Program-made: the position numbers and the translations under genes
NCBI GenBank assembly: GCA_030141605.1
Contig: JAQGDQ010000106.1
Span: 124,001-188,000 of the forward strand
DNA from: Tubiluchus corallicola
Taxonomy: Eukaryota; Priapulida; Priapulimorpha; Priapulimorphida; Tubiluchidae
DNA length: 64,000 bases
Direction: 5' to 3'
The notes under the pieces: model-generated
Databases searched by the model: none
Told to the model about the DNA's origin: nothing
The model's input: only the letters and a program-made list of their open reading frames with translations
Part shown: positions 19,672-49,500 of the stretch, one piece after another
Numbering within the stretch: the first letter of the stretch is position 1
Layout: each line of letters begins with the position of its first letter

Positions 19672-21534
19672 GAATTTAAAATTTAGATGCCACCTTCTGC
19701 TGTGCTACCTTGCACTTCTACACTAGGCAGTAGGTACCTATTAACACTCTAGCACAGTGTTAGGTGCTGTGTTGGCAGCAATAAGATGACAGATCAAGCC
19801 ACATTTGCATAGTGGTGAGTTACAAAAAACAAACTTTGATTCCTTTAGAAACCAGGCTGGAATTCATGTTGTAAATTTGGTATATATCCGGGCATTAAAA
19901 TTTTTGCAGGTGCGGAATCAGAAGTATGATGTGAGCACAGTGGTAGGCCACTAAATACATTGGATTACGAAAATAAATTACTTCAATCTCTTAAAAAGAA
20001 TGACTAATCAGTTTGCAAACTGTTCAATCAATTAAATTTTTCCACCCTGTCCTCATTCTTCTTCATGCCACTCCACACTTCTGTGTTGTAAACTGTGGAA
20101 GGAATTACAACACTGTCAAGACATTTTTAATCTTACCACCTTAGCAAATGTTTCTATTTTATTCTTACCTCCTCAGCTTAATATATACATTATCATGCAT
20201 TTGTTTGTCTTTTTCTTTTCTATATTTATGTCCTTTTGTCCCTCTCCGTACAGATACTCTGCTAAATATTTGTACTAACTAACTTTTCCTATTTTTTCTT
20301 TTTTAACTGGATTTTTGATCCACCTCCTATTTTTTATTTATCGACCTGAAAGATTATCCTTGCGGTCTTCCATTTGCTCAATTTATCCTTTCATACTTTT
20401 AGTAGTGATTAGCTACCACATCTGCTATTTGGAGTAGCTCAAATTTTTTGAGCTACCTAAGTATGAATGAGGGGTGAATAAGCTATCTAAGTGGCACATT
20501 TTAAATCATAAGCTGAATAAAGTGAAGCAGGTTAATCTTACTAAAGAAGTCAAAAGTATTGTGAGTTCTATAGCAGTTTTTGTTGTATTTGTTTATCTAT
20601 TGTTCTATGAGAAACAGACACCGATGAGATGAGGTGACTGATTAAACTCAAACTTAATAAACTGGTTGTAACATATCTTTGTCAACATCTTTGTCTTGTT
20701 TTTAGTTATCTGATTTAAGATCCTCTAGACAGATCCTCTTTCGACTGTGACAGTTTCTTTTTAATTTTTCATCTATCAAGAATGGTGTTTCGTGTAGGTG
20801 TGATCAAGTCTGGTGGGTTTCGTAAGTCTGATGTACGAATAGTATCAAAAATACCAATGACGTTATGAGCATAGCACAGTTTATCAGGAATGTCTCAACA
20901 ACTTTGGCCAATTTTAACTTAAAGCAAAACCACACCCAATCTCAAACTGTAGGTCAAAACCATCTGCTCTTTAAAATATTCAAAGGAAACATACTATGTT
21001 TTCTAAAATGACTTACGTGAAAGCATTATTACACAAACACAATTTCACATTTGTGCCACTAGTTCTTTGCTGTTAGATGCATTTCGCCATTTGTGAGTTA
21101 GACAGGCACTAACACCTGCATTTTGAAAAAAGCAGTGCACAAAAAAACAGATGCTGTACCTCTCAGTTCAGATGTGTTAGTTTGTGACGAACTACACACG
21201 TTCGACAGCTCATGTGTGAACACATTAGTAAATTTGAAATTTGAACTTTTATCTTAAAACTTGCCTAGTTTTTGCACAACACACTGAATACCTTACAGTA
21301 GCACTGTTATTCATTTTTCGCTTTTGCAAACATGTGCAATGCATTCATGGAATATTTTTACTTTTGAAAATTATGTTAGTTTGTGATGTCATCAATAGTT
21401 GGGCTCCCCCACTCATTTGAATTTTCTTGGTTTTTTCAGAAAAATGAAACACTCGCACATATTTATGTGTTACTAGATGAATAAATGCAACAGGGCCTGT
21501 GGGCAACTTCTAGCCTCTCTGGACAGCACTCGCT
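19672..21534. other. Region upstream of VRK
   Basis: AT-rich, with no exon seen. It must hold the VRK promoter and leader. The last 50 bases before the ATG at 21535 are less AT-rich and look like 5' UTR. Confidence 0.4.
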
Positions 21535-24500
21535 ATGCCTAGAAAAATTGCTGCCCCTAGTCAGCCAAAGCGTAAAAGAGCGGCTAGCAGTAAAAGCATG
21601 AAAGATGGTGAAAGTCCTGGTAAGAAAAGTAAAGTAGCTGCAAGAAGAGATCCTGCAAGAAGAGCTCCTGCTAAGAAAGCCCCGGCAAGGCTACATAAAC
21701 TGGCACCGATTCTCCCAGCCGGGACCATTGTGATAGATGTCTTTAAGAAGCAATGGCAGATTGGTGGAGTTGTAGGTACTGGTGGATTCGGAGCTATATA
21801 TTTGGCTTCAGACGATGTAACAAAACCCGTAGGTGAGCAAGCTGAATATGTAATAAAAGTGGTAAGTACCTGATCTGTTTTTCATTTTAGTTGTACCGTG
21901 TTTTGTTGCATAGTACAACACCTTTTGATACTTAGTATTTTATAGGGCAATCTAGTTCAAGAAATAAAGATAGTTTGTTCAAAAACGATTCTGTTCCTAG
22001 ACTCTTACATATACTAAACACCTAGTTCTTGCTCTAGACTACTAACCTGTCCTTTTGTGCATGTGTACGAAAAGCCACCAAGTAGTGAGTACCAAATTAG
22101 TATATTAACTTTTTATAAGCACATGTGGCAAAAATTATTTAACCCTTTCACTACGGAAGGTGGCACACTGCCACCTGTGTTTTTCGTGCAAGGGACGGGA
22201 GGCGGTAGACTGTTGTCCAAGCTCACCACTAAGCGCAATCACAAAAACAGTAGATAAGTTAAATAGACGTGGGATTGGCGTTGCTTCACAACAAGTAACG
22301 CTTGCCAGCCAATCTGCATATGAACCCAGGTGCATTCCACAATACTGTTCTGTTTAGTACGTTTTCATGCAAAATTGCTTGTTAATAGTTGTTGAAAGTA
22401 TGTTTAGCCACTTGTTCTGCATTCTTATAAAATAATTGCATTTTATGGATTAATAATATGACTTTTGTGAAAATTGGCTTGTAAACATAAGTATCTGCTG
22501 ATTTGTGTGAGTGTGCATGTGCATGAGTGCATGTATATATCCATGGACGTGTGCGTGTGTGTATAAATTAAATTAATATTCAATATTAGTGCTTAATAAC
22601 AAATGGCTATTAGTTTATGTACAAGATTCTGTTTTAGTGACACACCACAAGAAGTTATTGTCAAATGTGCAAAGCCACCGCAGCCTTGTTAACAAGCAAC
22701 TACGTAGTGAAAGGGCTAATCTTATCAGAAACAAATTAAAAAGAACTTGTGTATTATTAAAGTGAAATGAAACTAAACATGAAAAAGAATATTATTGATG
22801 TCAGTATAACTTGTTTAATATTAGAATTTATTCATAATAGTAATAAATATCATAATAGTAATAATAGATTTCATATAGCACGTATAATAGCTTATGATAC
22901 CATCTTCCAGGAACCTGTAGGAAATGGACCTCTTTTCTGTGAACTGCACTTTTATCAAAGAGCAGCTAAGCCATTCATGTGTAAGTTTTTTTACTGTGCG
23001 ATTAGCTTATAATAATTTACTACTTGCATAATATTTCACATGTTATATTTTATGCGCTAAGAGTAAGATTCAACCAGATTTTTTAACAGAAAAAACCATA
23101 CTATGAATGCGCATTTAGCTAAAAGGGCGTCTTTTTATAATGCTTTCTTTTTTTGACAAAAAATGTCCATGGTATTTGTGAAACAGTAACTGTTGCTTAT
23201 TAAAACCACCATGTGACCAGCAGTAAGTCTTAATAAACTCGCCCTTTTATTATGCGGCTACCTGTTGCAAGCATGTGTATTTGTCAAAGTATAGTCTGTA
23301 AACACTTCACTACTTGACAAAACAACCGACTTTAACTTTCGTTGTGACAGTAATCACATGCTTTGACTAGGAAGAGGTGAATCTAGAAAATGGGATTTAA
23401 ATTTCATTTGCGTGTCTTAAAAAAATAGGCAAACTACCAAATTACGTTTATTTTTCATTTTGGTGTTGCTTTTGTCACCTATTACTGAAAAATGTGGTCT
23501 TGTTAAATGGTGCAATGGTTTTATTAACCTTTCTTATTGGACCTGTCTAGTCTTCAATATCTTTTTACTTGTCATATATTTTAGCAGCATTTACATAGCT
23601 TGAAGTAAACTTATTACAAATTCTTTAAACAAGAATAGCTATCATAATCTTTTGTTTGCCAATAAAAATATTCATTAAGAAATGCCACTACTATTTATTG
23701 CAAACCGTATTTGTGCATAATAAAGCTGCATATTTTAAGTGAGCCGTCGTGGAAGACAGGTTTTTTTTACCAAATGCTACCAAAGCTTCAGGGTCCCCGA
23801 GCTTGAGGCCCCTAGGCTGCAGCCTATATTAGCCCATAGGATAAGCAGATGCTGTATGTGGGTAATTTCGGACGTGCCTAAATGGTTCTAAAATGCCGCT
23901 AGTTTTATTAAGTGACAACTACTGTATACTATTATAAGCTTTGTTTGCAGGTTGCTGTTACCGTTTATAAAGTTATTATTGAACTACCAATAGCTGGTAC
24001 ACCTTTTTTCATGATTAATTTTACCCATCAATATTGCCATCATTGCTTTCAGTAATGGCATTAATCATATCATTTCTGGTGTAGTTTGGTAATTGAAATT
24101 TCACTGCTTAGCAAGTTAAGACTGGTTTTATTACTAATAATCTTTATTTAAGGTCAGCATCAACGTCAACAGTTAACATAACCACAGTTATTATTGCCCG
24201 CTTGATACTTTGATTAATCCTCGTTGTTAATCGAAGAATGTAATGTAACGTAAAATTTTATTCATATAGTGCACTAAATCATTTAAAATCTCACTACGCT
24301 GAATAATAAAATACATTTAAAATTAAAAAAACATAAAACTTAAAAGACATTAAAAATTAAAGTAGTATTTTGTAGGTGATACAAAGAATTTTAAATTGAA
24401 TTCGAAATTTTATCAGCAACCAATGTAACTCTCTTAGAATGGGTACTGTTTTTCAAGTTTCTTTTATGACTTGGCCATGTACTTTCTGATCCACATGGAT

Positions 24501-27500
24501 AGCTAGCACATTACCGCCGAGCTATTAAGTTAGCTAACAAAGTTTCAGCTAACAAGAAATACTTTTGCCGAATCTTACCAAGTTGTTTGGAAAAAATTAA
24601 CTTGGATGTGATACATTTTTGCTACTTCCATTATTTTGTTTTTCTTGTATCAATAATCTTCAGCACTCACCAACAATGATGAATAATCATATAAATTGTA
24701 CTAGTTATCCAAGTAGCAGATTCGACTTTGTCCATTAAAGCTGTGGAAATAATGTACATGTAATGATGTTGTCATTTCAGTGAAAGAGTGGAAATCTAGC
24801 AAAAGATTAAAGTATCTTGGTGTACCAGAATATCAGAACACTGGCATCTTGAGTTACAAATCTACCGAATATCGGTTCATGGTCATGCAACGATTTGGAA
24901 CTGACCTGCAGAAAATCTTTGATGAGAATGGCAAGCGTTTCGGTGTGAAAACTGTACTACAGCTTGGCCTCAGAATTGCAAGTTTCCTCATTTTTAAACT
25001 TTTCGTTCATGAATTCAGTCTCTTAATGCCTTATCTTTTTGGTTTATTTGCTTTTTCTATGCTGAACTGTAGTTACTAGTTGCACTCTAATTTGAACATA
25101 TTTTATAGCTGGATGTGCTAGAGTACATACATGAGAATGAATATGTGCATGCTGACATTAAAGCGGCTAACCTGCTAGTTGGTTATAAAAAAGGAAAGCC
25201 AACCAATGAGGTATCCATTATTTTCTAAAGTTTTTATTTCCTAGTGATTAATTGTTGGCATAATATATATTCCCTATTTTATCTTAACTTGTTTGTCGTG
25301 TCATGCAAATGAAAATAAAGTTGATGTGTCACATATTACTCAACTCTTGAAGCATGTTACATGCTAAACATAGTATGCTGAGTATGCACACTTATAGCAG
25401 TTCAGCCATTAAAATGTTATCTTTACTGACTAACAGAAGAAATTAAAAATTAATATTTGGAAGATTTTATCTTTTATTAACATGTTTCCAGGTTTACCTG
25501 GTGGATTATGGGTTAGTGTACCGATATTGTCCCGGTGGAAAACATAAAGAGTATATAGAGGATCCACGCAAATCTCACGATGGGACAATAGAATTCACAA
25601 GTATTGACATGCACAGAGGCGTGTGTAAGGGCACATGAAATATAGATTTCATTAAATTGCTTTATGTAGAGATTGCAACCTTACACTTTTTCACATGCAA
25701 TTCTAATAAAATTAATTGCAACACCAAATACTTTTAGTCATTTTTGCAAATTTGAATTTATTTTTTACTGAGTTTTCGTTTGGTGGGACATGAGTAGTTT
25801 CTAAACCTATATCATTCAAGGAATAATTCTTTGAGCTATGAATTATGATTTTGACTTTCTAGCAGCTTTAGTAATTTTGTCTGAGAAAAATTGCACAAAA
25901 ATATTATCAAGCCTGTGCCCTTCTTTTAAACTTGCCTAAAGCTTGATGTCAAACTTGGCATCTCATATTTAAAGTTACTCATATTTACAGTTAAGGGGGA
26001 CTAATTTTTTATATGACCCAGTTCTGCAGTCTCACGTTTCCGTGAGTTATTGTGTCATTTTAAATGGTTAAATGGTGATATTTTTAAAACTAACAGCCAT
26101 ACTAAGTTTTTGTAAACCAGTTAAATTTTTTGTAAAGATCCAGATCTTTTTTCAATTTTTTTTCATTATTTAACTCGTTACAACAAATATGTGGGAAAAT
26201 TTTTTACTATTGCTGCTAAAACAACAATTTTTAAAATTGAAATATTAATTTTTACTGTAACTCAATAGATTTCATCTTTGTTTAGAACTGATGGTTCACA
26301 TTGCAACACCTCATTGTCTATTATCCTGGATAAGATTGTGCTGTTTTTTTTCTAGGCCCTTCTCGTAGAGCTGACTTGGAAATCCTGGGATATTGCATGC
26401 TTCAGTGGTTATGTGGACGACTCCCATGGGAAGACAATCTGAAAAACTGTGATTATGTGGCAGACGAAAAAATCAAGTAACTATTAGTTGGCATATAGAA
26501 TAATAATTTTATTATTTGTGTAACTTAAATCTAATTAAAAATTATCATAGTAAAGCTAGCTAGTTTTCATAAAACCATTCTAACATAAAGTTAACAACAT
26601 GAAGCTTTGATGTTATTATACTATTTCATTCTTAGTGGTTATTTGATTGCACATTTTAGCTTGTTGACCTGATGAGTTTTCCTATTTTTATCTGCATGAG
26701 TGTTTTTTAACAGTTAGGATGCAATTAATTACGAAACTTATTAATCTTCTCGTATATAAAATACGTAAATTAGTAAAGTTAATTGTTTACTTTAGACTGA
26801 GCTTTCCATGTGATTTTTTTTAAGGTACATGTCAAATTTGAGTAAACTAATGAAAGACTGTTTCAAAAAAGACAAACCGGTCGGTAAGCAGGCATACAAC
26901 TTGTCTTATGAACATATTTTTTGCTGTTTAATATTCATGCAGTATTACTAATGATCATAGAAATTCCATGAAGTTCATTTAATTTTATGTCTATCGTGAC
27001 ATAATAGCTTACAAACAGTTTGTGAATAAAAGATATTTGTGATGAGTTATGAATGGTCTTGTTCATTTTTTTCCATGTAATTTGATTACCCATAGATGTG
27101 TTATTTATTTCTCCTGGTAAATAACTACATAAATAACCAGTTAATTTGTACACTGCAGTGATTGTATGCTTGTATGTATCATTACATCTGCTATTATTTC
27201 AAATTTTGCATCTCTCACTGTAATAGTTTTTACATTTATAGAGGAAATAGCAAAACTGTTAGAATATAGCCGAACGCTCCGTTACAATGAGAAACCTGAT
27301 TATTCGCGTGTCCGGCGCATGTTTAAAAGTGCTCTCAAGAGCAGAAGGATGACAGATGATGGATATGTTGAACTTCCTGCTTTAGCCGTATCAGCAAGTG
27401 TCAAACGTCCTACTCGGGGCACAGCAAAGGCTGGAAGAAAGGTCTGTGTCATTTATGTTCTAATGTTAGGCATATAAGTAAAATCTTGCCTTTGCTATTG

Positions 27501-30500
27501 AGGACTTGTACTTGTAATCTTAGCTATGAAATGCAATCCTGGTTTTGATCTTGGACAGATTTTTAGTTCAGCAACCAGTGTAATTAAAATCTTTTGATTG
27601 AATATGATACAAACTTCATTCAGTAACCATAGACATAGACATAGAACATTTTTTACAGTTTTACAGCAAAAGTTTTGTTAAATATTAAATAATTGTAATC
27701 ATGGAGCAGGGCAGGGAGGGACCATAGCCCTCCTGCCCTTCCATATAGATAGATTGGTATATTAAAAATAAAAGGTGATGCTGCAGATAATAAAAACAAA
27801 TAAGAAAAAAATAGTACAAATTGTCAAAAGAAAAACTAAAAACAAAAATAGTAAAGTTAAATGCATAAATCTAAGCAAAAGAATGCAATTTCTGGGACAA
27901 CAAAAGATTTGTAAGTAACGTAATAAACCAAAAAAGGTTAAGTACGAAGTAAAGCATTGAATCAAACTAAAACAAAACGAATGAGTAATTTATTAATTGA
28001 AACAAAATGATAAAGGTTAAATCATAATCATTAATGTAGTCAAATTAACCAAAATCAATAATAATTAGAGGACTCGGCAAGAACCAATGAAGGGACAACA
28101 AAATCTATATGCAAAAAATATATATGACGTTGGTTTGGGTAAAAAAAATGAAAAATAATAAATAGTACTTGCAAACAAAGTAGTAGTTTCAAATGAGGTC
28201 TTATTAACAGGAGAATTTGAATAAGGTTAGTGGGTAAAGTTAGCAGTGTGGAAAAAAATAATTAGTTTGAAAAAAATAAACTGCCTCAGTGTTTGTGGTG
28301 TTAAAGCTAGTCTAGTTAAAATGTTTAATATGGAATTTAATATGGATAATTATTCCTAACAAATACTCCTCGATTTGGGCTTATTTTCAATTAATTTTGA
28401 ATGTTTACTCTCGTTTCTTACAATTTATTTTTAAACTAAATAAAATAATCACATGCATATCAAACATATGTGCATTGAGCAATTTTATTTCTTTGTGTAA
28501 CTATTCAAAGCTTAATTAGCTTACATCCTTATACAATTTACAAAGTGGGGTCCAGTACTTGACTGCTGGGTCTACTAATTAATATGCTGATGGTTTAACT
28601 CTGTGGCAAAACAGTAACTTAGCTCCTCGTAATCAAGGCTAGTCTTTTAGGATCAGACACTAAACTAGCAGACCTGTTTTTATCTCATTCAGCTGTACAA
28701 TGTACACCCTTGTCAACAAAGATAAAATAGCTGGAAGCAGTACAGCAGATGGAAACTTCCAAAAGCCAGTTTCCTGCTGAAGACCAGTTACTTTACTTTC
28801 AAGCTCCAGCTTGCTTAAGTTTGTTTACTGAAAACAGTTAAGATGACCACTTAACTATTTCCTTTGCACTGAATAATGTTGGTACCTTTCATTTTAAAAG
28901 GACACGTTTTTTCAATCCTGGAGCACAGGATTAAGTTTATCGTCCTTCCCAAAATTAAAATGAATCCTAGAATTGTAACTACTAGTCGAAATCTGGACAA
29001 CTTTGCAATTTTTGGACCTTGTTTATAACTACTTAAGGGTCATTGTTGGCCATCAGCAGGAATTCTCCTAGGTATGAAAATGGGAGGGTCTACAATTCCC
29101 TAGTCTTTAACATTTTTAGCACAGCTGTAATGAATATAATTATTAAGCAGCCATCAATCCCTCCACCTCACTATGAATCTTATTTCTTGGAAGAAAAATC
29201 TGAAAATACCTGGACAAAAAGTGACTTGAAGTTGCACTTTATCCATGCTGATTTTTGGAAATATTTTCACCAACAATTAATAATGAATAAAATTTTTTCA
29301 AGTGCACATTAATATTTAAAAAGGTTTTCAATGATTCTGTAGAGTAAATGTTAAAAATTAAATTTACTTTCTTACATAAAGCTCAGTGTACAAATCAAAT
29401 TAGACTCATTGGCACTGACTAAATTAGTTTTAGTGTATCATCTGTGTAGTGCACATGCAGAGAAGAATCGGCACATTTTGAAAGTTATGCGCCCACAATT
29501 TGAGAGTTTTGGATATTTACAATTAACCTAATATCTGATTTATGCAAATTTATCTAGAGAAGTAAGAGTGAATCTGGTGATTCTGCCTCTACATCACCGA
29601 GTCCAGTCAGAAGATCATCAAAGCCAAAATTATCATCCCCACGTAAGAGCATTCCAAAACGCCGGTCAAAGGTAATGAACAAACTGACTTCAATAGCAGA
29701 ATATGACAGTGACAGTGACGTTGAATACTTCACTCCCCCGCAGACGCTCAACAGCGGAGATTCATCTGAAGGTTAATTATTTTGTCATATCTTTCTTTTT
29801 TGTCTTTATCTTGTTTAAAGTTTTTGCACATATTTTTACTTTGCAGCTCACTTTTAGCATAACGATCTCCCAGTGTTACGTAGTGATTTCTCTTTTAAAT
29901 AGTTTGTTGATGGTAGTGAACCTGTGACCAATTATGTTTTGTAGTTCCATATAAAATATCTCAATTTCTAACACTAAAACCTGAATCTGTAAATCTTGCT
30001 AGAGATGGTGTCATTTATTTTATATAATAAAAAAGTATTTCACAGTGAGTTGATTAGGCTTACTACGCACCCAATTTTTCAGTGTGAACTAGAATTAATC
30101 AAAACTAGTTCATAAATGTGCTTACTTTCAATGCTGTAGTATACAGGGTATCCAGAAATAGACACAATGGCTTTATTCTTGTACTGATTTTCTAATTTTT
30201 CTGACATAGTAATATGTTGTTTAATTCTTATTTCTTATTTCTGCAAGTAAAAAGTCAAGTTTTTGAAGAAAGCCATGAAACAAGTTTCATTTAGAACAAG
30301 AAACTCCAGCGATTGTACTCCTGTTGATTAATAGCTGCCAGAGCTGCAAATTGTGCGTGGCAATATCAGATATTAAAATATTTGTTCTTTATTCAAAATT
30401 AAGTACTTCACTGTCTGTATGACGAGATGCCTATACCGGCACCTGGCAACACATTTCATAAATCAGAATACTGAGAATAAAGTGATGCTGTCTGCTGTTG

Positions 30501-32053
30501 GCCAAAAAGTTAATATATAGACCACAAAATGCCTATATTGTCACCACAGCCAAAAACATGAGCAAAACTCGCAGAAAAGATTGCTGTTATTACTGAATGT
30601 GCTCTGCAATCTGCTGTTGACTTTTGATTTTACCCTACATTTTGCAAGTTGCTTTGAATTATACCATGCAAAGTAAAACTACTTTTGAAGTGTTGTGATG
30701 AAACTGGTATTGATGAAAATGGTTGTACTAGTAATGACAGTAGTGGACAGCAACAGCAGTGAAATTATTGGGGTGACAACAACTATGGTGGTGGCAATAT
30801 TTTGCCATGATAGTTTTGACAATAAAACTGATGCAGTAAACGTTGCAGTAACCTGTAGTCTGTAGCAGTACAACTTTTCCTTTTCTTAAGATTTTTCCCT
30901 GCACCATCTACAATAAGAAATGCATGGCCTTGAAGAGGTTAAGTGCTCTTCTTGGGTTTTCACTATTTTTATTTATTTATTACATTTTTTTCTGTAGAAG
31001 GGATCTGGCACTTTATGATATCTTATATACTTCATTATAACCCAATGCGATTCTGTATTTGCTGATTCACTTTGTCACAAAAAGCAAAATATAAGGCCAA
31101 TCTCTTTTCCACTACGGTAAAATTTCTGTTAAACAATTATCTAGATCCAAATCTTTATTAACACATTACATTATGCATGTAAATTACTAATTTATTGGAT
31201 TTGGAAGATATCTGCGAGCAAGCATCATGTTCCTTTCCATTATTATACTATGATATTAAAATAATAAAGCAGCTTGTATAACTGTAGATCAATTGTTCAA
31301 AGACATTTTGTCTGAATATGGTCTGGCTTCCATGATATGTTTAGTTAATCAACACCTTACTCTAGTTTAGTATACCCTGTATCGAATTACACTCTGTGCG
31401 TGTGCGTGCGTGCGTGTGTGTTGTAACAAACTGTGAAATTATTTTTCAACATGATGTTACACATTGTTCTAGATGAAGGAAACAGCCGAGCATTTAACAA
31501 ACGTAGACAGACACTGTTAAACAATGCCCGGCGTAGGTCTTCGCTGATGCTAGCTCCAGTACAGTCTAAAGGTAGTAATCACATTAATCATTGTTAATCA
31601 TTAATAACAGCCAACTTTTAGTGATTTGGCTGTTGAAAATCTGACATCTGTTATTTGTGTGAAAAATAGTGATGGACACTTGACTGGTTTGCTTGGATTT
31701 TCCTGTGGCTGCACTACAGTGTTTGCCACTGCAGCTTTTACATTTGCAATTCAAATTATTAATTGAATTAAATGTCAGCAATCATCCATAGATTTTTCTT
31801 TACTTAGAAATAATTCTAGAGTTATTATTCAGAATACTGTGAAATGCTGAAGAAAATACAGGTAGCTACACAATGGTGATTTTCTTATTTATATTTTTCA
31901 GCATTAAAGTTGAAAGACAAAGCATTGAAAACTATGACAAAAGCTCAGCCATCTACATCTTCATTAAAACATTTGGCATTTGCACGTGGTCCACCACTTC
32001 CTGGACAAAGGCGCACTGACACTAAAGTAGCTACACCAAAACGAAGAAAATAG
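21535..32053 (+). CDS. VRK1: Vaccinia-related kinase (VRK1/2-type) nuclear Ser/Thr kinase, 11 exons
   Basis: Exons 21535-21861, 22911-22980, 24781-24977, 25109-25210, 25492-25624, 26356-26476, 26825-26883, 27242-27441, 29558-29771, 31473-31571 and 31902-32053 join in frame to 557 residues. Kinase features: glycine loop GTGGFG (81-86); ATP-binding Lys K108; the VRK-typical [17 protein letters not shown] segment (about 114-130); catalytic loop HADIKAAN (212-219, Asp214); and DYG in place of DFG (237-239). The activation segment contains [10 protein letters not shown]. VRKs phosphorylate BAF, histone H3 and transcription factors in the nucleus. The N-terminal ~55 residues are very basic ([12 protein letters not shown] type), longer than in human VRK1. 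The C-terminal ~190 residues are Ser/Lys/Arg-rich with an acidic patch ([10 protein letters not shown]) and end in a basic PKRRK, a likely nuclear signal. Intron 3 uses a GC donor. Whether it is VRK1 or the pre-duplication VRK cannot be told here. Confidence 0.96.
22143..22715. mobile_element. piggyBac-type miniature element in VRK intron 1
   Basis: CCCTTTCACTACG at 22143-22155 is mirrored exactly by CGTAGTGAAAGGG at 22703-22715. The left end is flanked by TTAA (22139-22142) and the right by CTAA (22716-22719), one change from a TTAA duplication. TTAA targets and ends starting with CCC are the piggyBac hallmark. 573 bases, no transposase frame. It lies wholly inside the first VRK intron. Confidence 0.75.
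24978..25108 (+). other. GC-AG intron (VRK intron 3)
   Basis: The only junction that keeps the reading frame and the family sequence (LRI followed by LDVLEYIH) places the donor at GCAAGT directly after ATT, with the acceptor TTTTATAG before 25109. Use of the nearby GT at 24981 (GTTTCC) would shift the frame. GC-AG introns are a recognised minority class of U2 introns. Confidence 0.8.
27709..27738. repeat. GC-rich hairpin in VRK intron 8
   Basis: GGGCAGGGAGGG (27709-27720) pairs with CCCTCCTGCCC (27728-27738) across a 7-base loop, with one bulged G. It stands out from the surrounding A-rich intron. Confidence 0.6.
30141..31382. mobile_element. Possible Tc1/mariner-type non-autonomous element in VRK intron 9
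   Basis: ATACAGGGTATCC at 30141-30153 is answered by GTATACCCTGTAT at 31370-31382, 12 of 13 inverted matches starting at TA. No transposase frame between them. The termini resemble those of the 12.5 kb element. The right boundary is adjacent to the 3' splice site region of exon 10. Confidence 0.5.
31395..31422. repeat. TG/CG microsatellite in VRK intron 9
   Basis: A run of TGTG/TGCG dinucleotides about 28 bases long, just outside the right end of the putative element at 31382. Confidence 0.7.
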
Positions 32054-33650
32054 AAAGTTTAGTAACAGAACATTGTCAAATGCTAAAGTCCTTGCACTTT
32101 TTTTCAGTAAACTGCTCATTTATGGAGTTTTTCAGCAAGTGGATGCTATGAAATTTGATATTTCTAAATACATGTGCACGACTAATATTTGCAATAATTC
32201 TAAAAACACTTTTCTTTAGTTTATTTTATATAAGAATATGGTTCAAGTATATGTTAGGAGAAAAACTGTTTGCAAACTGTAATAGTTTTTTCCAACTATT
32301 GATTTGTTCTCCAAAATTGTTTTTGATACAGTTCTTAATAGACCAAGTCAATATTTTGTAATTTATATGTTGCTTATTAAATGTTGCACCAAATTTGTAA
32401 AATATAAACGATTAGTTAGACATTTTATTACATTGCCTTAAGTACTGCATTGAAATTAAAGGTCTGCCAGTGCCTACTAATACAAGTGTGGTTAACATAC
32501 TTTTAACACAGTGTTTAATATGCTGTACTAAAACACAATTAACCAGAGTTAGAGGTAGCTTCTCCCGTAAAATAAAATGGCGATAAAATTGCGTTTTTGC
32601 AAAACACTAGCAATAATTTCCATATTTACACTATTGCTTGGTTGCATGGTATTAGAGCAATTACATCATATATTGAACAGAATACTCTCATTTACAAGAA
32701 CGATGTTCAAACCATGAGAACTTTCAATGTCAGCTGCATTCGTGTCAGCATTGCTATTTTTTTCAAGATCTAGCAGCATCTGCGCGTTGGCTTCTTCACA
32801 AACTTTGAACTTTGTGGTTGTTCTGACATACACAACACAATACTACACCTGTGGAAATCTTTATCTGTTGTTAACAGAGTCTGTAATGCAGCTCGTTGCT
32901 GCTATGCACCAAAATAATAGGTCAACTTGGCACCTCAACCGTAATTCGCTGTAAAAAAAACGTTTTGTTTATCACTCGGATATAATCAAACAATAACTTA
33001 GCACTATAATTTTATAATGCACTAAAAATTGCCGGAGTTTGTAATCTAAGATTACAACGCATGCAAGTAGACATAAAATAAGAAATAAAATAAGAATGCA
33101 TAAGAATAAAAGCTAAACTATATTTTATTCTAGTAACACAATATTTGCTTTAATAGTGTTAATAACTACAAAAGTGACATAAATTCAGTCAGCTGATTTG
33201 TTTGATTACCAAAATCAGGTTGTTTTATTTTAAGTCATTGCAAGCTGCATTGGTGACATAGCTGCTACAATATCAAATTATAAGTTAGCGTGGGTGAGCG
33301 CTGGTTACTTACAACAAGAACAGTAGTACATAAAAGATTTTTTGCATCAATAATAACACCAAAAATTTTCAAACAACTTTGTAAAATACTTAATATATGT
33401 TAACATATTTTAATGCAGATGCGCATTCATTAAACCTATTTATTGTTATTACATAAATATTTATAAAAACCGAAATGAAAACAATAAAAGTTTTAGTGGA
33501 GCAATCGTTGCTCTACCAGATAAAAATTGGAAGGCAACAGCAATAATTTATGGAGCAAATCCAAATATTTTGAGCCCTTTTCGCTACGTGGTATGTAACG
33601 TGCATGAATAGCTGGTCTTGAATACAAGCTACCTCAAACATTGCTTTCGG
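32054..33650. other. Short intergenic space between convergent VRK and FANCL
   Basis: 1.6 kb containing the 3' UTRs of both genes. AATAAA at about 32571 is a candidate VRK polyadenylation signal. No exon or RNA gene is seen. Confidence 0.45.
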
Positions 33651-36600
33651 TTAGATGCAGCTGCGGTGGCACAAAACTCTGATCTGGAAATGTTTATTAC
33701 GCAATTATGAATTAAGAGAGCAATGGTATTGTTACTTACTGTGCAGCAGTAAGGGCATTCTCCAAAAATTCTGTTAAAGCTTTGCTGGTTATCTGGGTTT
33801 GACCGCAAACACTGAAATTGATTATTATTAATGATTTTTTATATTCTTAGCTTCAGCATTATTTATTAACGATGGAATGAACCCACAATTACTGAAATTT
33901 CAAGACCAAAAAATAAAGAACCAGACAAATTTGTCTGAAAAAAGGAAGTATCATGAAGTCGTAATTAAGCTGTATTTGAATCAGCTATTGGATTACACAT
34001 CGAATGGCACAACATTTTTATGCTTTAAATTTAATGCAAAAAAATTAATCAGACTAAACTGATGGTTGGCGACCTACAATGATGAGTTACGACCTGGCAT
34101 GATCCTAGAGCTGAGTATTCTAGGGGTCATAGGATTAGATCTGTATTCTAAAGGTTGCTGATTCAAATCCAAACTTAGTCTCTCCTTTTGAATAAATTTA
34201 TTTTGAAATTCTAATATATGCAGGTAAAGAATAGTAGCCGCAGGTGAAAAAATTGCATATTTCATAAGCAAGTAAATATTGCAAGCATTAGATGCTACAT
34301 AGTTTCAGTCATGGGGTAACAAACAAAATTATGAAAACTGAAAATGAGCACAAAGAACAATGCGATCATTTCTATTTCTTACTCGCAAACCAAAACCGTA
34401 TATAAATCAGCATAGTTAAAACTATATCATGATGCTTCAAAGTAGAATGACCCAAAAAGTTCTGTCTAGAAACTAGTACTACAACTGTAAAAAACTCCTA
34501 TTTTCAAACTCCGATAGTAGCTCCTGGAAGCCGTCATTTTGTTTCAGGTTTTTTTCTGTCGCCAAGCCCAAATCTTCGTGAAAAAGGGCCATCTACTTGA
34601 TTAAAACATAGCTTCAATGTGCTCTAGCAAAGTCCGTAGCAACCAACGTGTCAAAAAACAATAGCTCAACTCCAATGTGGATTATCTCAGCTTAGAAATA
34701 CTATAGAGCGATGAGCTTGGTATCAAAACGGTCCTCATGAAACAGAGATTCGGGATATGTAAATAACCAGAAAAACTTGATTGCCAACTTATGGACGATT
34801 TTGCTATGCAAGAACACATTTAATTCTTTTTATTTGTAATATACAATAAGGAAGATACCAGGTTCATCTGCAATTTTATATTAAAAAGCCACGTGAAAAC
34901 AATTACGGGGAGGTACCTGGTAGATACATTCCTGATGATATGCTTGTCCACATTTGCTATTCTCGCATAAAACAACTGGTAGTGTCTTCCCAAGCTGGTA
35001 GGCATAGCAAATGCCACAACCGATGTCAAAATCCTGGAAAACCAATTTGAGCCACTAGATGACAATTAAAGCAAGTGAACGAGTTCATTTGATTGTTTTA
35101 CAGATTACTTTCAGTGTTACAATACAAGAAATTCCTCAATAATCTACTACTAGTCTAGGCCACGCAAAAATTTTGCTCATAAATACACGTGCATAATAAA
35201 CACAGCCCTGTACTTCCTCTTTACAGAGAACTATAAATTTTCCCCCAAGACCCCCACCAAGTAGTTGGGTCTGGGATAACGCTTGTTACGGCTAAAGCCC
35301 TCGCGTGAATTCTAAATGCGCTTACTACACCAACCGTTGAACAGGCTATCTAGCCATTATAAGCACAGCCCCCGGCATGTTTTCATTCTCTACAGCAAAT
35401 GAGATATAAGTTCTGCAAAAAACGGGCAAAAAGGGTCATTTTTAGAGGTTTTTTCTCTCGGCGACCCCAATTCAATAAATAAACCATGAATTAGGAGACC
35501 TTTTGTTTGATGCGAGGATCACCAAGAATTGTGCTGTCTTTGGAGCTCTAGCTTCAAATCTGAATTGAATATATATATATAACACGCATTACCACCGAAA
35601 TTAATTTATATAGTGACATGAGCAGCATATAGAATTCAGAATTAAAAAAGAAATACTATACTGCAATGCCAAGAACTACTGTCCACTACATGCCTAGTGT
35701 CACCAGAAAGATACGTGCAAAATATTGTTCATGACTTTCATCTTGAAAAGTGCGCAGTATTACACAAGGAAAAATATCATACAGTTATTTTATTGTGCAT
35801 GAAATATCAGTTTTCTATGGCCTTTTTGAAACTATTTGATTTAAAAATGTGAAATACCTTAATAAAAAACATCATTAGTTAAATAAAATTTGAATTTAGA
35901 TGTAATACCCGTGCTTCAGGTTCCATCCGGGAAGGTAGCGTCACCTCCATTAATAATTGCAAGTTATTTATTAATGTATCCTTCGTATCCCTATTGTAAA
36001 AGCAAAAGGGAGTAGTCTGGTGTTATGCAAACTTGCTATTAGTGGGCAACAGTAGCAAAAGAAAAATAAAAACAAGTTAAATTTTGAAACTGTTAAGTTT
36101 TTGCACTGAATCGGATTGGAAATTTGCAAAGATACTCAATATAATTTCTAAGTATTTTCACTGCATCTATAAACTTTACTTATACACTACAAACTGTTGA
36201 GAGTACAAATATAATAATTACAAAACTAAGTGTATCTAAACAACCACGGCTGCAGATTTACTAACCATTTGTCTGTATTTACTCGAAACTTTTCTCGATA
36301 CTGTCCCACCGCTGAAACACAAAAATATTTTAGTTGTAATAACGCTGCATTTACAAAGCATTGAGGCAAATCGACTGCCAACAAATGCACCAGCAGGTAG
36401 AGCAATGGAAGAAATACTAGGTGGTTAACTCTTATCACACATAACAAGGACATCAGCTCGAAGTAAGGCTGTCAATCGAATAGAAAATTTTGAAATTGAA
36501 TCGAATTGGAAGTTTTTGGAATTGCATCAAATTGAATCAACATTTTCAAATTGAATTTGAATCAAATAAAAATTTACAATATATGCACTTAAATCTGGAT

Positions 36601-39600
36601 CTTGGTGTGCAGTATTGCACTTTTGCATCTCTATGTTTTTAAGCTAGGATTTCTGAGTCACTTTTAGGTTGCGGTTTTTCAAGGAAGGTCGAAAAAGTGC
36701 AGTGGCACCTGCGAGTGTATTTTTCGGCAGTTCTTTACTTTTCAAACAAGGTCAAGATTGCAAAATTTATTCCAAGATTATCAAACACAGTAAAATCAGG
36801 CATTTAGAGTCGAAATATTTATTAATATTATGCGATTAAGCATGCTTAGGTCTATGATAACACTGTCTGAGAGTTCTGCTATAAGTTTTACAGTTAAAAA
36901 ACTTTTGTAAAATTATCCACACAACTTAATTTTACAACGTGTTCTACCATTAGTAACATTAAATAAAAAAATACAGCTAAGGGTTTTACAGTTAAAAAAT
37001 TCGAGTACTAGAGCTAACACAAATAGCAGCTAGCCATCTTCAATTCAAGATGTGCATATTTCTTACATGAACAACACATGGTAACATAGTAACGATTACA
37101 ACTACATCATGACAGCAACGGCATGAATTTCTCAAATTTTGGAGACATCAAATCGAATGTGCGAATTTTCAGATTCGACTGCCAGTCCTGGCTCATATTA
37201 CAATAAATTAAGATACAATTATTATAAAAGAAACAACAGCTAAATGTTCGAAATCTTAAAGAATGTTATGTGTACACCAAAGTTACTGCTGTAATGCACA
37301 AATGCACATTGCAAAGGATGTATTGTCACAACTTTGCCTGGGATTATCACGTGCGCAAAACAGTCATAATTTATATCATTACCAAGCAGTTACAAACAAA
37401 CAAAAAAGACAGATAGTAGTACTGATACAATGGCAACAAAAACATTTAAACTGAGCAGTTCTTGCAAAATATTTAGTACACTTGTTCAATATACACTGAT
37501 ATTACCAATGTACCGTGTTCAGATCCAATAAAGATGCATTCGGGCAAGGCACGTGGATTCCAAGGGTCTATGATCATGTGGAGAAATGCATTTTTATCTG
37601 AAAAATAGATCCACTACAAATTTAGAAAATCAAAGAACAATAAATTCATTAATAATAGTTAATCAACAATTGTGGTGAGTGGCTGTGTCTTGGTTAGCGA
37701 AAAGGCAGCACATAGTTTACACTTATGAAAAATTTATCAAAAACAAAATTGATCTTAAGTTGAAAGATTTGCTAAGAGGTTGCACCTTGTCGATTGTGAG
37801 GTTGACTATGTTCATAGACCAACAAACTCTGTATCTCTAACATCCACTGTCATTGCCTATTTATAATTTAAATTTGACAATTATTACTTTTGATGGAATT
37901 AAGTTAGTGAACCCTACCAGCCATGTTTGGTTTATAGACTGCTGAAAATATGGTTTGACCCAAAAAAATTGTTACAAATGGTTTTCAACAGGTTTTTATA
38001 GTATCAAGTGTGCTTATCAGAGGTCACTTTAACCACAGTCTGGTCACCAGAAAGGCTTCATTTTCAAGATGGTGTCAAGGGTGGCCGTTAAATCATGAAA
38101 ACATTTATCAGTCCTTCATTATTCCTCCTGGTAAAGTAATTTTGATGCCTAATCCCATGTTTTGGAGATCCGAGGAATCCAATTTACATAATTAATTATC
38201 CAAGATGGCGCAACCAGTATCGGCCGCATAACTGTGAAAATATTCATTAGTTTATCAGTGATCAGTATTCATCACAGACAAGGAATTATGGTCCTATCCC
38301 CATGGTTTGGGGTTCAAGGGATGCATTGCAGTTCGTATCCTGCACAACTACATATTGGTTAGCATGCAGTTGTCCAATTACAATGGACCATTTGAAGGAG
38401 ACATTTTGAAGCAGCAGTTTTCTTGAACATAATTGGCATGAGTCGATAACTCTTTGGATTCTATAAGGAGGAAGATATTCTGGGGAACAAATAACTTGGC
38501 AGAAACAATTTTCTTGCTAAATAGACTACAGCATAGCGAGATAACTAAATCGACACTCTTGGTACTAAACAAAATGCCATGCTTCTTTGTTGCCAAAGGC
38601 TTCTGTGACATTATATGATTGATTTGGGATCAGATCCTGTCACAAAATCAAAAAGCCCATGTTTGTTACAGACTCAGAAAAGAAAACTAACATTTTTTTC
38701 CTGTTATACTGTTATAACAAGGATATACTAGTATCTACAAAAAATGATTATCCCATATATCCATGACAACCCTGTATTCTCCATAAACAAAAACCAAATG
38801 TAGGTTTGCAGCATGTTAAATACCTTCTGTTTGCATGTAAGCCCATGCTGGCTGTATTACATGAAATTTGTTACCAGTTGCTTCAGTTACCTGCTGCTGC
38901 TGAATTTGATAGAGATGTGACAGAGATTAAAAGTAAGAACCTGAAATGAGTGCATACTATAATATAAATGTTAACAATTAGTAATGTTGCACAAAGGAAA
39001 TCATACAATTAACAAAGGCAGCTTCACCTATGAGCATATTTTAAATCTGAGTAAGAGTCATAGGCCACTTCCATAGTGTTTCAGCCATATTGGTAGGTCA
39101 TTTTGGATTTTACTTCATAATCACATAATCACTTCAAAGTTCAGCATAATTCTAATATGCAAACTGGATTCCTCGAATGCCAAAAGATGGCAGCAAAATT
39201 CCTCGTCTATGATGAATACTAAGAGAATTATTCGCATTTTCTCAGTTATGAGGCCATAATGGTTGGCCATCTTGGATTTCAGATCACTTCACTGTAATTT
39301 AAATATGCAAATTTGATTCATCTGTCACTAAAATATGGGAGTGGGCACCAAAATTATTCACCTAGGATAAATAATGAAGAAGCACTGAGCAACTTCGGTG
39401 ACATCTTGAAAATTAGGTCTTTTCTACTGTGCTACCTTCTTATAAACAAATCTCCAACAATATAATTGTGTAGCTTGTATCGTTTAATCTGAAAACAAAT
39501 AAGATAATTTTATATAATTTTGCTCAATTTTACGGCGAAATCTAAACCAAATTGATCTAATTAACTTTAACAAAGTTTTACGCAAATTATAAAATCTAAT

Positions 39601-42600
39601 CGCTAGTCTTTTTAATCTAATCTTTTTAATAAACAAAGGTTCAAGATTTAAGAAATTAATAAATGAACTTACATGGTGATCTTCTATAAGTGTAATTATG
39701 AAATTATAACAACAAATCAATGAATGACGCTAAACAATCTGTAACTGCACTGTGTGAATGCCTCAGTGACTCCAATCTACAGGTAAGTGTACAGGTAAAA
39801 GACCGGTCACATGACCTGTTTAAAAGGAAACCAATTTATAACAGAAAAGAGGGGGCACAACAAGTTTAAATCAGCACATCTACTAATACTATAATACATA
39901 CCTGACAATATAAAAACCGTTGAAAAACCTTTTGCAGCAAATTTTTGGGACAAGGTGATTTTTTCATATAATGCAACCACCTATTATTTTATCATCCAAT
40001 ATCGTTGTGCTTAGAAATAGCAATAATGCACAGTGTTGGGTTACAGTGCGCCTCTTGCAGGCACCACGAATAATTTTTCTACAGTATGCTGAGCAACTGC
40101 AAATCACAATTAATCTGACAAAAAATGCCACTAGCCTATTCAAGTTTTACGTTAATTGTGATTGATTAATTAATAGGTAGAACAATAATTAATGCCCAAG
40201 GAAAATTTAATGCAAGAGCTGATTGTTTTCATAAAACAAATGATGATGCCTAAGGAAACTTTATTTTAACAGCCATTTCCATAGAATACTTCCCCTCCCC
40301 AAGCTATCCAAAGCTTTGACTACTGATATTCAACTTTTTTTATTTTACGTTATTTTTTTAAAAAAGATAGCAGCATTTATACTGGAATTTCTAATACATG
40401 TTGTACTGTCTCAACGAAGATAAAGCAATGCGTATTGCACAACTTGTATACTACAGTATGTAAATACAAACTGCTACCTGTGTGTCTTCTCTGAATAAAT
40501 TATAATTACAAAATGATATATCTCACATGCCTTGCCAGATTCTAAAACATGCGTGTTGAAGCAGACATATTACTTTACACCCAAGTTTGTTTACCTAATA
40601 CCAATCTCCTAGAAGTCGATTTAGGGGAACAGTCAACTGCATCTAAAACATGAGCAGCAGAATCCAATTCCTCCAGTAAATTCCACAAATCTTGATGAAG
40701 GCACAGTTGGTCTTCAAATTGACGTACAAGATCAGCTAAGGTCATTTTCTAGTGATTAAATGCAAAAGACAACTAATAATGTTATGTGTGCTTGCATAGC
40801 AAAACCGTCCATAAATCGGCAATTAACCTTTTCTAAATCTCCATTTCATGAGGATCATTTTGATACCAAGCTCATCACTCTATTTTATTTCTAAGTTGAG
40901 ATAATCCATGTTAAGTTCAGGTGCATGCTGCACACTAAAAAGCATAATCTTGAGAAAATCGCTGTTAAAGTTAGCCATTGTTTTCTGCCTCATTTCTACA
41001 AAACACTTAACACCCACATGAATGTTGGTTGCTATGGACTTTGCAAGAGCAGATTGAAATTATTTGTAAATACAGTAGATGGCTCTTTCTGATGATAATC
41101 TGGGCTTGGCAACAGAAAAAACCCGAAGCAAAATGATTGCTTCCATGAGCTACTATCGGAGTTTGAAAATGCAAGTTGCTTGCAATTGCAGTGTTAGTTT
41201 CTGGCATGAAAAATGGGTACAGTGTTATAAAATCTGATTTTTAGTATTTTCTGTACATTTTCTTGATAATTTGATGTTAGAATATAAAAGTCCATATATT
41301 TAGCATTTGTTTTATAAAAGACAAAAAATTGACATTTGACCAAATTTTTGGTACATTTTACTTTGAAGCATAATAATGTTGTTTTAACTATGCTGACTTA
41401 TGGATGGTTTTGGTCTGCAAGCACACACATGCATAATTATAGCAATTTAAGTAATTTGTACAAACACAAAAACATTACCGAGTCTTCCTTTTTTTATATT
41501 TCAATAAATATTATAAGAAAAGATCCGAAACAGTATAAAAATAAAATAATTTTATTAAAAAGAAAAGTAAAAATTACCATCTTGGTTGCTTGGGGAGGGT
41601 TTAATATTACAAATTAAATGTTTCCACACGACGTGTCCACCGCAGACACTAACTGATTAAAGCACATATGTAACAAAAAAAATTAAAGGTAGCATAAATC
41701 CAAATATTATTTACAAAAACACCGTGTTTTGACAATGGTACGGTTGCTACAGTGGGATCACCTAGTCCAAATTCCAACAAATGAAAATTCTGGCATTTTC
41801 TCATCCTCTAATTAAGGTATCAACAAAAACTTTTCACTGATCTATAAATTTTTTTATCTCCCCCTTATGGTTATCTCGTTCTCAGTGGATCTGCACGGAT
41901 ATATTACACTAAATTCTGCTATAGTAACTACTATTTAAAAACCCCTACCAGGTTAGAAATCACGAAAAACTTACGGTATGCCATTGTACTGAGAACGGTA
42001 CAGGAAGTTCAGCTTGACACGAAGGAGGCTCATAAGGATACTGAAAACCAGACAAATAGGTAATTAAATCCAGCACAGTATATATATATATATATATATT
42101 TATTGTATAATATTAAATGTGATTCACGTACATTAAGGCATCAATATCAAAAAATTCTCAGGAAGTATATCACTATCAAGGTTTACAAAAGTTCAAGTTT
42201 TTGCACAATACTACATTTCATATATTATTTATTTACACATGTTCTATTCATTATTCTAAATCGACTGCAAGAACACATTAATGTGAGATATTTGCGCACT
42301 AGTATGGAATTTGTTAAACAAAAGCAGATGCTTAGTTAATATTAACCGAATGTGAGTAAAAAATAAAATTTACTCCGCCATTTATCATACTAGCTTGAAA
42401 CATTACTTCTTTCATCGTTCACAACCTCATTACGTACCTCAGCAGGAATGTGTACAGTTAGCAAGTGGCTTCGTTCACGCTCATCCTGGACTTGTACTTT
42501 CAGCAAAGAAAAATCTGAATCCACGTGAGATATCCTGTCCGTATATAATTACAAAGTCACAAAAATATATGATCAGCATTGTTACATTTGAATAATATTT

Positions 42601-45395
42601 CTAGTTTCCTGCTCTTGTAAAGTGTCAGAAAGTTATCCTATTGCAGGTGGCATTCTACAAACCCGTAGTTACACTGTACGAGTACAATTAAAATAGCAAG
42701 CAATAATGCTATTCACTGTTCACGTCAGCATGAGGACTGATATCCCAAGCTATGTTGTTTTGCAGCACAGTATTTGACACCAAACAAAAATGAAACAAGG
42801 CTTTGAATAACGAAAATTAGTAACATCACATACATAAGTAAAAAGCTTTTAAATGCAGTTATTGAACAAATGTGCCATAAATGGCCTACAAGACTCTGTT
42901 CGTTCACTGTAGCATTTTGCTAAAACTTTTAAGTCGTTGCATTAAATTTAATATAGCTGAATTTTATTGATTATTTTAAATTTCAGTTCTTTTCAACCAT
43001 TATTGAGAACAAATGCGAAGTTTCACCTGCTCCAACCAACGGCATCTAAATCGCTCACAATCCGTTGACAAAATTCTGATTGTAAACATGTTTTGGACTT
43101 TCCCTGCTTTAGTTTACTTTCCTAGAATAAAAGAGCCAGTAAAGCTAATATTTGGTGTCAGAATACTTCATGTAACAAATGGAAAAAATCCAAAGAACTT
43201 GAGTGGCACATACATAAATTATGACTATTTTTTACTTCAATGTTGGCTTAGAATGAGGTAAACTAATATCTAAGCGTGTAAAAGGCAATAATTTATCAAT
43301 TATACTAAACTGATTTAAAGATGGATTTTATACCAACAAGGGATAACACAATTTATATTATGCAAAGCATGTAATTAAATGTAAACATTCAGTAGTTAAC
43401 ACCCAAAGCACCGATATATTTTATTAATCGCTCAGAGACTCATAATAACAATCCTTATATCAACTGCTCAGAAAACGAAAGCTGTCTCACGCCAATGACA
43501 TTTTTTGATATCTCAGGTCTCTTGTAAATTTTACTAATTAAATTTTTAGATACTCAAAAATAATTCAATGTTTTGGGTTTCTACCTTTCAAACGCTCTGT
43601 ACATATTTTGAAATGTTGATGCTTTGGGCACATACGTTTCAGATGCCTCGTGTCACGTTCACCTTTCTAGGACCTTAGCCACTTTTTGATGGCCAAAACA
43701 ATTACTTTTTAGAATTGTTTGACAAATGTCACCCAAAAAAGAGAGTATAAAAATTCACAAGATGTCTGGGACATGTGTGTGCACGCGTGTGTGCCAACCC
43801 TTATGAAATATTTATTACAGAAATTTTAATTAATTAATGTAAGTATTACTCACCAAAATAGTAGACAGTTCATGTAGAAATGTTCCTATGTTATCACTTT
43901 GCCTGAGTCTCTGTAAACAAAAAAAAACTTTGTCAATCAGTATTCGGCAATTTGTCATTGGTTCATTCAGTTCCGTGCACCATGATTCAGTTGTGTGAAT
44001 CATTAGGTAATGACCACCTATTTGACTCTGATTCACTAGTTAACAGTCCCAACACATCTTTGGCAGGTGTAATAGAAAAATGCAATCTATCACCTTTTTA
44101 GAACTAAAGGGTTAATGTAGATAATAAATGTTTATTTGCAATATGTGACATACAGCATTTAATGTGATAACATAATTATAATGTTTTTCTACTACACAAT
44201 TTGTTTCTACTCTGCAGAATGCAGAAGGGATCGCAAAAGCTCCAAAGCAGAGCAATCTTAACACTTCAGAATCATTGCCTGATGTTTGCATCCCTGGAAG
44301 TAAATTCCATTAGCCCAGTTTGGGGATATGTGATAAGAGCAAATACAGAGTATAATGAAAGCCAAGTAAAATAGACTACTGTGCACCTTGTAGGTTAGAC
44401 GATGGAATACAAGCAATGAACTTTCTGTTCTAACACAGTTCTGTTGTGCACAGAAATTGCATACAAATATAAGATGGTCTAGCTGATGACCAGATTCCAC
44501 TGTAATCAAAGTTACACTGCATTACTCCACACTTCCGCAGGCAAAATGTTATAATTATGTTGCACTACGATAATATTACAGCAAGATTTCTTCTGCATAC
44601 ACTGTATAAAATCAGTGTTTATTAAACAGTCCTATAATATTTCTTCACAGTTTTCTGTTGGTCAAGTATGACAAAAAAAATACAAGGCATTAGAATGAAA
44701 ATATACCGGAACATTAAAAATATTGTGCTCTTCCAACCACAAACCTATAAGATAGTATTAAATGCATCTTCTAAATTTACATCACATTGCCCTTATTATT
44801 TAAAAGTTCATTAACTTTTATACCTTTTGAACCACATTAAGGTTGTTTTGCAACAAATGTTTGACTCTCCAGTTAACGAACAGCGAAGCATCTTGTAATG
44901 CATCTGGTTTTCTAAGTATGATCCTCAAATGATATGTTTCACCCTGAAATACTAGTTTCTTGTAGATGTAGTTAAGTAAACAACATCTAATACAACTATA
45001 GTTAAAATGATTAGAGAAAATGTTGTTAGTGATAAATTAATGATTAATTCCAAAATTAGGTAATTCAGTTACCGATTCGATAAGAAGACAAAATTAAAGG
45101 CATGACAATGACAGTTCTAGTTAAAATTACCAAACTTATTTTTGTAATCACCATAATTACCATGTTCTCACTCTTGTAAAAACGAACTGTTACATAAACT
45201 ATGAAAGGTGAGGGCATGCGATTGCATGCTCTAATTAAAAGTAGTGCATACTTGATGATGATGAATACATGGCACTTGTTGACCAAACAGAAAAAATGTA
45301 AATTTTCTAAAACTGGTACTTACACAAGTGGATATAAGGCCAATAAACATAGTATTGTCTGAGTTGATTGGTATGTAGGAGCTTGTAGAAACCAT
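33651..45395 (-). CDS. FANCL: FANCL, Fanconi anaemia core E3 ubiquitin ligase, about 14 exons
   Basis: Assembled from splice sites and family similarity: 45324-45395 (ATG), 44824-44943, 43854-43910, 43585-43621 (tentative), 43027-43075, 42438-42534, 41975-42040, 40595-40748, 37514-37597, 36266-36311, 35909-35990, 34917-35033, 33740-33811 and 33651-33683 (stop). Every junction keeps frame; about 361 residues against 375 in human. The N-terminal ELF part has GETYHLRIIL. The two central UBC-like RWD units include YPYEPPSCQAELPVPF and NPRALPECIFIGSE. The RING-type domain is at about 294-350: CGICYAYQL, then C311, C316, H321, C324 and GECPYC. FANCL with the E2 UBE2T monoubiquitinates FANCD2-FANCI in interstrand crosslink repair. 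Ile296 and Tyr298 match the human E2 contacts I309 and Y311, but the W341 position is Cys328. The exon of residues 84-95 is the weak point. The gene converges on VRK. Confidence 0.95.
34501..34815 (+). repeat. Dispersed repeat in FANCL intron 12, copy A
   Basis: From TTTTCAAACTCCGATAGTAG through TTTGCTATGCAAG this stretch is closely matched by the reverse complement of about 40790-41178. Shared blocks include GTTTTTTCTGTYGCCAAGCCCA, GCAAAGTCCRTAGCAACCAAC and GAGCTTGGTATCAAAA. No coding capacity. Confidence 0.75.
36467..37188. mobile_element. Possible non-autonomous DNA element in FANCL intron 9
   Basis: The left end GGCTGTCAATCGAATAGAAA is matched by the reverse complement of the right end, GGCAGTCGAATCTGAAAATTC (imperfect inverted termini of about 30 bases, rich in ATCGAAT). 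About 720 bases, no transposase frame. Ends of this style occur in hAT-type miniature elements; class is uncertain, and no clean target duplication could be assigned. Confidence 0.5.
38010..38340 (+). repeat. Degenerate ~110-130 base unit repeat, copy A
   Basis: Two consecutive diverged units each run from CAAGATGG, through GGCCG..TAA.TGTGAAAA, to CCATGTTTTGGAGATCCGAGG / CCATGGTTTGGGGTTCAAGG. A reverse-complement copy lies at 39.06-39.35 kb. In a FANCL intron; not coding. Confidence 0.6.
39060..39355 (-). repeat. Degenerate unit repeat, copy B (inverted)
   Basis: Read on the - strand it gives CCAAGATGGCCAACCATTATGGC, GGCCTCATAACTGAGAAAAT, TATTCATCATAGACGAGGAATT and ATTCGAGGAATCCAG, matching copy A unit by unit. 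It is inverted relative to copy A, 0.7 kb away. Confidence 0.6.
40790..41178 (-). repeat. Dispersed repeat in FANCL intron 7, copy B (inverted)
   Basis: Reverse complement of the 34501-34815 family, with about 70 extra bases in the middle. It lies in opposite orientation in another intron of the same gene, 6 kb away. Confidence 0.75.
42079..42099. repeat. TA microsatellite
   Basis: About ten TA dinucleotides in a FANCL intron. Confidence 0.8.
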
Positions 45396-49456: not shown

Positions 49457-49500
49457 CTCACTGATTTCACGTATTCTTGAATGCTGTTTATTTGCAAAGC

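Follow-up and report, generated by a model that had tools for sequence, protein, structure and literature searches.

In the priapulid Tubiluchus corallicola, a gene for a protein kinase of the VRK family lies tail to tail with FANCL, which encodes a DNA-repair ubiquitin ligase. We take the human genes VRK2 and FANCL to be convergent as well, in band 2p16.1. This likeness raises the question of whether the pair was inherited from a common bilaterian ancestor and, if so, what has kept the two genes together. The window, meaning the whole 64-kb stretch of DNA that was analyzed (C2147:124001-188000), is part of a contig of 618,660 bp in an assembly of 343.5 Mb in 2344 contigs. The first-pass annotation had described the two genes as adjoining and convergent as in human, and the adjacency is real: both are complete, VRK on the plus strand and FANCL on the minus strand, they converge, and no gene was recognized between them. 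Adjacency of the human genes is recorded in PMC6906185 and PMC3436827.

The VRK gene was modeled as 11 coding exons spanning 10.5 kb.

21535-32053, plus strand: VRK gene, 11 coding exons in a splice model with one continuous frame, 557 aa
21535-21861, 22911-22980, 24781-24977 and 25109-25210, plus strand: VRK exons 1 to 4
25492-25624, 26356-26476, 26825-26883 and 27242-27441, plus strand: VRK exons 5 to 8
29558-29771, 31473-31571 and 31902-32053, plus strand: VRK exons 9 to 11

The third intron is of the GC-AG type, with the donor GCAAGT at 24978. This GC donor was accepted because it is needed to join the conserved kinase stretches LGLRI and LDVLEYIHE, as in the VRK1 chain. When the product was compared with chains in the PDB, VRK1 matched best (424.5 bits), followed by VRK2 (343.3 bits) and VRK3 (220.6 bits), and the best casein kinase 1 (CK1) chain, at 129.9 bits, fell below all of the VRK families. 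A full VRK kinase domain is present, as judged by VRK1 and VRK2 scores above those of CK1, and the catalytic motifs YVHxDIKAxNLL and LVDYGL were both found, at the aligned places where the VRK1 chain has YVHGDIKASNLL and LVDYGL. The single-frame, 557-aa model and the PDB matches bear out the earlier placement of this gene on the plus strand with its end at 32053.

Which human VRK the gene corresponds to is a separate matter. The VRK1 chains score 81 bits above the VRK2 chains, but the VRK1 constructs are longer (361 to 403 versus 324 to 345 aa) and 349 versus 305 residues were matched, so the score difference alone does not put the gene nearer VRK1. A C-terminal membrane anchor is a feature of VRK2A; no hydrophobic stretch of this type was seen by eye in the predicted product, whose C terminus is basic and ends in KVATPKRRK. 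These comparisons identify the gene as a member of the VRK family without singling out VRK2.

Paralogs could complicate the comparison with human. The genome contains 15 VRK matches, 11 of which correspond to exons of the gene described above; the best of the others, on contig C215, has 123.6 bits and 33% identity, and the remaining three have E values of 1.1e-5 to 2.4e-4. The C215 match was considered as a second VRK and rejected, as its 412-aa open frame reads by eye as a CK1-type kinase. All 10 FANCL matches are exons of the FANCL gene described here, and a search of viral and prokaryote contigs gave no FANCL relative. No second copy of VRK or FANCL was found in this genome-wide match search, from which weak matches or stretches of N could escape, and thus the comparison involves no choice among paralogs. 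The genome yielded at least 118 homeodomain matches, and 10 of these loci were read. Named by reading their peptides, eight resemble Hox1, Hox2, Hox3, Hox4, Scr/Hox5-like, Gbx, engrailed, and Hmx, and the other two are another central Hox gene and a Hox-like gene of no clear placement. These Hox-, Gbx-, engrailed-, and Hmx-like homeodomains indicate that the genome is a bilaterian's. A search for mitochondrial COX1 gave no match. Because a single VRK was found in a bilaterian genome, it is probably co-orthologous to both VRK1 and VRK2.

FANCL was modeled on the opposite strand as 13 coding exons spanning 12.5 kb.

32922-45395, minus strand: FANCL gene, 13 coding exons, 362 aa, from Pfam and FANCL chain alignments
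45395-45324, 44943-44824, 43910-43854, 43121-43027 and 42534-42438, minus strand: FANCL exons 1 to 5
42040-41975, 40748-40595, 37597-37514 and 36311-36266, minus strand: FANCL exons 6 to 9
35990-35909, 35033-34917, 33811-33740 and 32948-32922, minus strand: FANCL exons 10 to 13
32922-32948, minus strand: corrected last FANCL exon (exon 13), 27 bases, with acceptor TTTTTTTTACAG and peptide RITVEVPS-stop

The domains FANCL_d1, FANCL_d2, FANCL_d3, and FANCL_C (PF09765, PF18890, PF18891, and PF11793) all match above the cut-off. The product has three UBC-like domains and a C-terminal RING, whose cysteines and histidine align with those of FANCL chains, and the alignments to chains 6sri_q and 7kzp_L span residue 8 through the C terminus. 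The start at 45395 and the four Pfam domains uphold the minus-strand gene that had been annotated beside VRK; its end had been put at 33651, and this part had to be revised. Splicing exon 12 to 32948-32922 gives CPYCCTRITVEVPS-stop and restores the conserved FANCL C terminus. The corrected end raised the scores of four of the six matched chains, those reaching the RING (from 283.9 to 286.6, 267.7 to 271.5, 89.7 to 93.5, and 52.2 to 54.4 bits), and left the other two unchanged. Its acceptor ranks first among the 85 AG sites between the FANCL donor and the VRK stop codon (score of 8, runner-up 3), in a ranking that measures similarity to the C terminus of two FANCL chains and that followed the spotting of the exon by eye. 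Two other ends, at 33651 and at 33634 (the latter used in our initial model), were rejected on the acceptor ranking and the PDB scores. The 33660 site scores -10 versus 8 for the corrected exon, and with the end at 33634 the alignments stop at CPYC. FANCL is therefore predicted to end at 32922.

With the corrected last exon, the two stop codons are 868 bp apart and not about 1.6 kb, the distance given in the first-pass annotation.

32054-32921, no strand: stop-to-stop interval, 868 bp, with the corrected FANCL end

The description of the genome as one of small introns does not suit it either, as introns measure 275 to 2997 bp in FANCL and 131 to 2116 bp in VRK (from the exon lists) and the genome 343.5 Mb. 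A coding-like stretch was noted by eye within the interval (32666-32800, minus strand), downstream of the FANCL stop codon.

We think it likely, with a probability of roughly 0.78, that VRK and FANCL are an inherited convergent pair, already tail to tail in the common bilaterian ancestor shared with vertebrates. This would be a tidy but rather unremarkable example of conserved order in two unrelated housekeeping genes. Ancient metazoan microsyntenic gene pairs were reportedly described by Irimia et al. in 2012. Two-gene microsyntenies common to distant animals form a known class (PMC10719294). According to PMC8851819, just 70 multi-gene blocks were passed down to the ancestor of vertebrates, a smaller number than in shuffled genomes (110, 120, and 124), which suggests that vertebrates lost most such blocks and that loosely defined blocks arise by chance. 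Like the pairs of this class, VRK and FANCL are unrelated genes that show the same adjacency and orientation in distantly related animals. However, well-supported ancient pairs rest on conservation across many phyla, whereas VRK-FANCL rests here on two lineages. An invertebrate VRK-FANCL pair was not named in the open-license literature searched; published supplementary synteny tables may contain it. The ancient block proposed in the first-pass annotation is accordingly upheld in part. The pair matches human, but only one non-human genome was compared, and the rest of the nameable neighborhood is not conserved, as described below.

PEX13 and one PPP4R3 paralog are presumably also near human VRK2. 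Human VRK2, FANCL, BCL11A, and PAPOLG form one regulatory block, in which BCL11A is proposed to be the target while VRK2 and FANCL are described as bystanders (PMC6906185), and a table in PMC3436827 lists one ultraconserved-element cluster with BCL11A, CCDC85A, FANCL, PAPOLG, and VRK2. For chromosome 14, a single unordered list in PMC6834745 gives VRK1, BCL11B, PAPOLA, CCDC85C, AK7, SETD3, and PPP4R3A; FANCL is absent from this list. The VRK, BCL11, PAPOL, and CCDC85 families thus occur both on chromosome 14 and in the VRK2 block, which suggests a linkage that predates the vertebrate duplications. In the priapulid, each of these four families was found at one locus, on four contigs in all, and a single locus each was likewise found for FANCL and PPP4R3, the state expected prior to the genome duplications of vertebrates. 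The exception is PEX13, whose exons occur at five places on C1796, C2016, C2136, C2140, and C2209, equal in score and in spacing. Redundancy among contigs or a recent duplication of large size could account for this, and it looks like assembly redundancy.

From the gene lists and presumed gene positions, the history of the pair might be reconstructed as follows. One VRK gene would have lain tail to tail with FANCL in the ancestor that this bilaterian shares with vertebrates. Duplication of the chromosome in vertebrates would then have given two VRK copies: VRK2, which stayed with FANCL and BCL11A, and VRK1, which is on chromosome 14 with BCL11B. In the priapulid, VRK and FANCL would have stayed paired, although the searched-for members of the vertebrate block are on other contigs. 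Retention would be mostly passive, a matter of 3'-to-3' packing: with 868 bp separating the stop codons, most breaks in the interval would harm a 3' untranslated region or poly(A) region, which would leave little room for a harmless one. We regard the combination of an ancestral pair with this passive reason for its retention as reasonably probable. Two of the alternatives accept the common ancestry and differ from the passive explanation only in the reason for retention.

According to the first of these, BCL11 enhancers in and around both genes kept the ancestral pair together, as proposed for vertebrates, where the bystander role of VRK2 and FANCL and the shared ultraconserved-element cluster would fit such an arrangement. 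A BCL11 gene is indeed present in the priapulid genome. Its only match is at C2137:98003 (on a contig of 649,352 bp), where a CCHC finger scores above the cut-off and is followed by an exon that we take to resemble the next BCL11 finger exon. A BCL11 gene was not found on the contig of the pair, which extends about 145 kb to the left of VRK and about 449 kb to the right of FANCL, and the lack of a match over flanks of this length counts against a BCL11 block acting at short range in this genome. None of the five families BCL11, PAPOL, CCDC85, PEX13, and PPP4R3 was found on this 618.7-kb contig, subject to the same loss of weak matches or of matches in stretches of N; PAPOL lies on C2252, CCDC85 on C1751, and PPP4R3 on C1804. 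A BCL11-VRK link across unjoined contig ends is possible at a distance of at least about 0.24 Mb, the least that the contig ends allow. Overall, we consider it unlikely that BCL11 regulation explains the retention of the pair.

The second alternative holds that the two 3' ends are functionally coupled, with an antisense overlap or a shared terminator regulating one or both genes and selection keeping the order. The pair would then be a bilaterian-or-older module held by overlapping or shared termination and polyadenylation, independent of the BCL11 block. The 3' ends of human VRK2 and FANCL presumably overlap, and the short priapulid interval contains poly(A) signals on both strands.

32376, 32455 and 32571, plus strand: poly(A) signals A(A/T)TAAA on the VRK strand of the 868-bp interval
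32519, 32429 and 32225, minus strand: poly(A) signals A(A/T)TAAA on the FANCL strand of the 868-bp interval

From these positions, the 3' ends of the two genes may abut or may share as much as a few hundred bases. However, the signals occur at chance density, with three observed versus 2.2 expected on the plus strand and three versus 3.0 on the minus strand, and at least one signal was present on each strand in 84% of 2000 first-order Markov simulations of the same composition as the interval. As the signals are no commoner than in simulated sequence, an antisense 3' overlap is allowed by the sequence, with which it is only compatible, and is not supported by it. No paper treating FANCL, VRK2, and antisense together was found in the open-license literature searched. 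Selected coupling of the 3' ends is to our mind as doubtful a reason for retention as BCL11 enhancers.

A third possibility is that VRK and FANCL were brought together independently in the priapulid lineage and in vertebrates. Only two lineages were compared, and the pair was picked for matching human. The surroundings were annotated over 134 kb around the window, with the following features besides VRK and FANCL.

134-kb region: MFS transporter
134-kb region: EF-hand fragment, weak match only
134-kb region: PSMA3
134-kb region: Dak1-domain gene
134-kb region: CREB3L-like fragment, named by eye, without a Pfam match
47483-49588 of the window, minus strand: first of two tandem TM9SF-like genes, a long single open frame
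C2147:187540-189369, minus strand: second of the tandem TM9SF-like genes, a long single open frame

We know of none of these neighbors (the MFS transporter, the two TM9SF-like genes, PSMA3, the Dak1-domain gene, and the others) near VRK2 in human. If 20,000 genes were arranged at random, simple arithmetic puts the probability of finding FANCL as the convergent 3' neighbor of VRK, for the named pair and orientation, at about 2.5e-5. For any of the eight adjacent pairs in the 134 kb to match human order and orientation, it is about 4e-4; these pairs come from nine features, some of them fragments, and unseen genes may intervene. Both figures stand before correction for the number of windows scanned, a correction whose size is unknown. 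A chance match of pair and orientation with human is unlikely, and we give this possibility less credence than either of the two reasons for retention discussed above. Least probable of all is a misjoin that placed VRK beside FANCL: the redundancy suggested by PEX13 would speak for such an error, but there are no Ns in the 64-kb window or the joined 134 kb around it, both genes are complete with no second copy found, and a misjoin would have had to recreate the human pair by a further coincidence.

If VRK and FANCL were inherited as a pair, the reading we favor, the linkage of VRK2 and FANCL at a locus associated with schizophrenia in humans (PMC6906185) would predate vertebrates, and the BCL11A regulatory block alone may not explain it. 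The two ohnologous regions would also be placed in order, with the VRK2 copy in the ancestral position beside FANCL. Convergent housekeeping pairs that outlive their neighborhood could provide a simple test set for gene order kept by 3' packing alone.

Several repeats and mobile-element-like sequences were observed around the pair. A dispersed repeat of about 480 bp (window positions 20925-21405) stops about 130 bp short of the VRK start codon. It has at least 41 matches (40 of the 4708 candidates were scored), 39 of the 41 being 85 to 88% identical, and a copy that is 82% identical sits immediately upstream of the CCHC exon of BCL11. The two TM9SF-like genes share a 489-base stretch that is 77% identical in DNA, and the EMP70 Pfam match was tested for the first gene only. 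Direct repeats of at least 40 bases were not found within 20500-46500, and a scan with a bacterial-code program found no tRNA genes in the window. Inverted repeat pieces, 81 to 89% identical, lie in two FANCL introns (34385-34750 and 40836-41418). A 525-aa open frame with a hAT dimerization domain (18009-19586, minus strand) lies about 2 kb upstream of VRK, and an open frame named by eye as a LINE-like reverse transcriptase lies to the left of the window at C2147:118385-119812.
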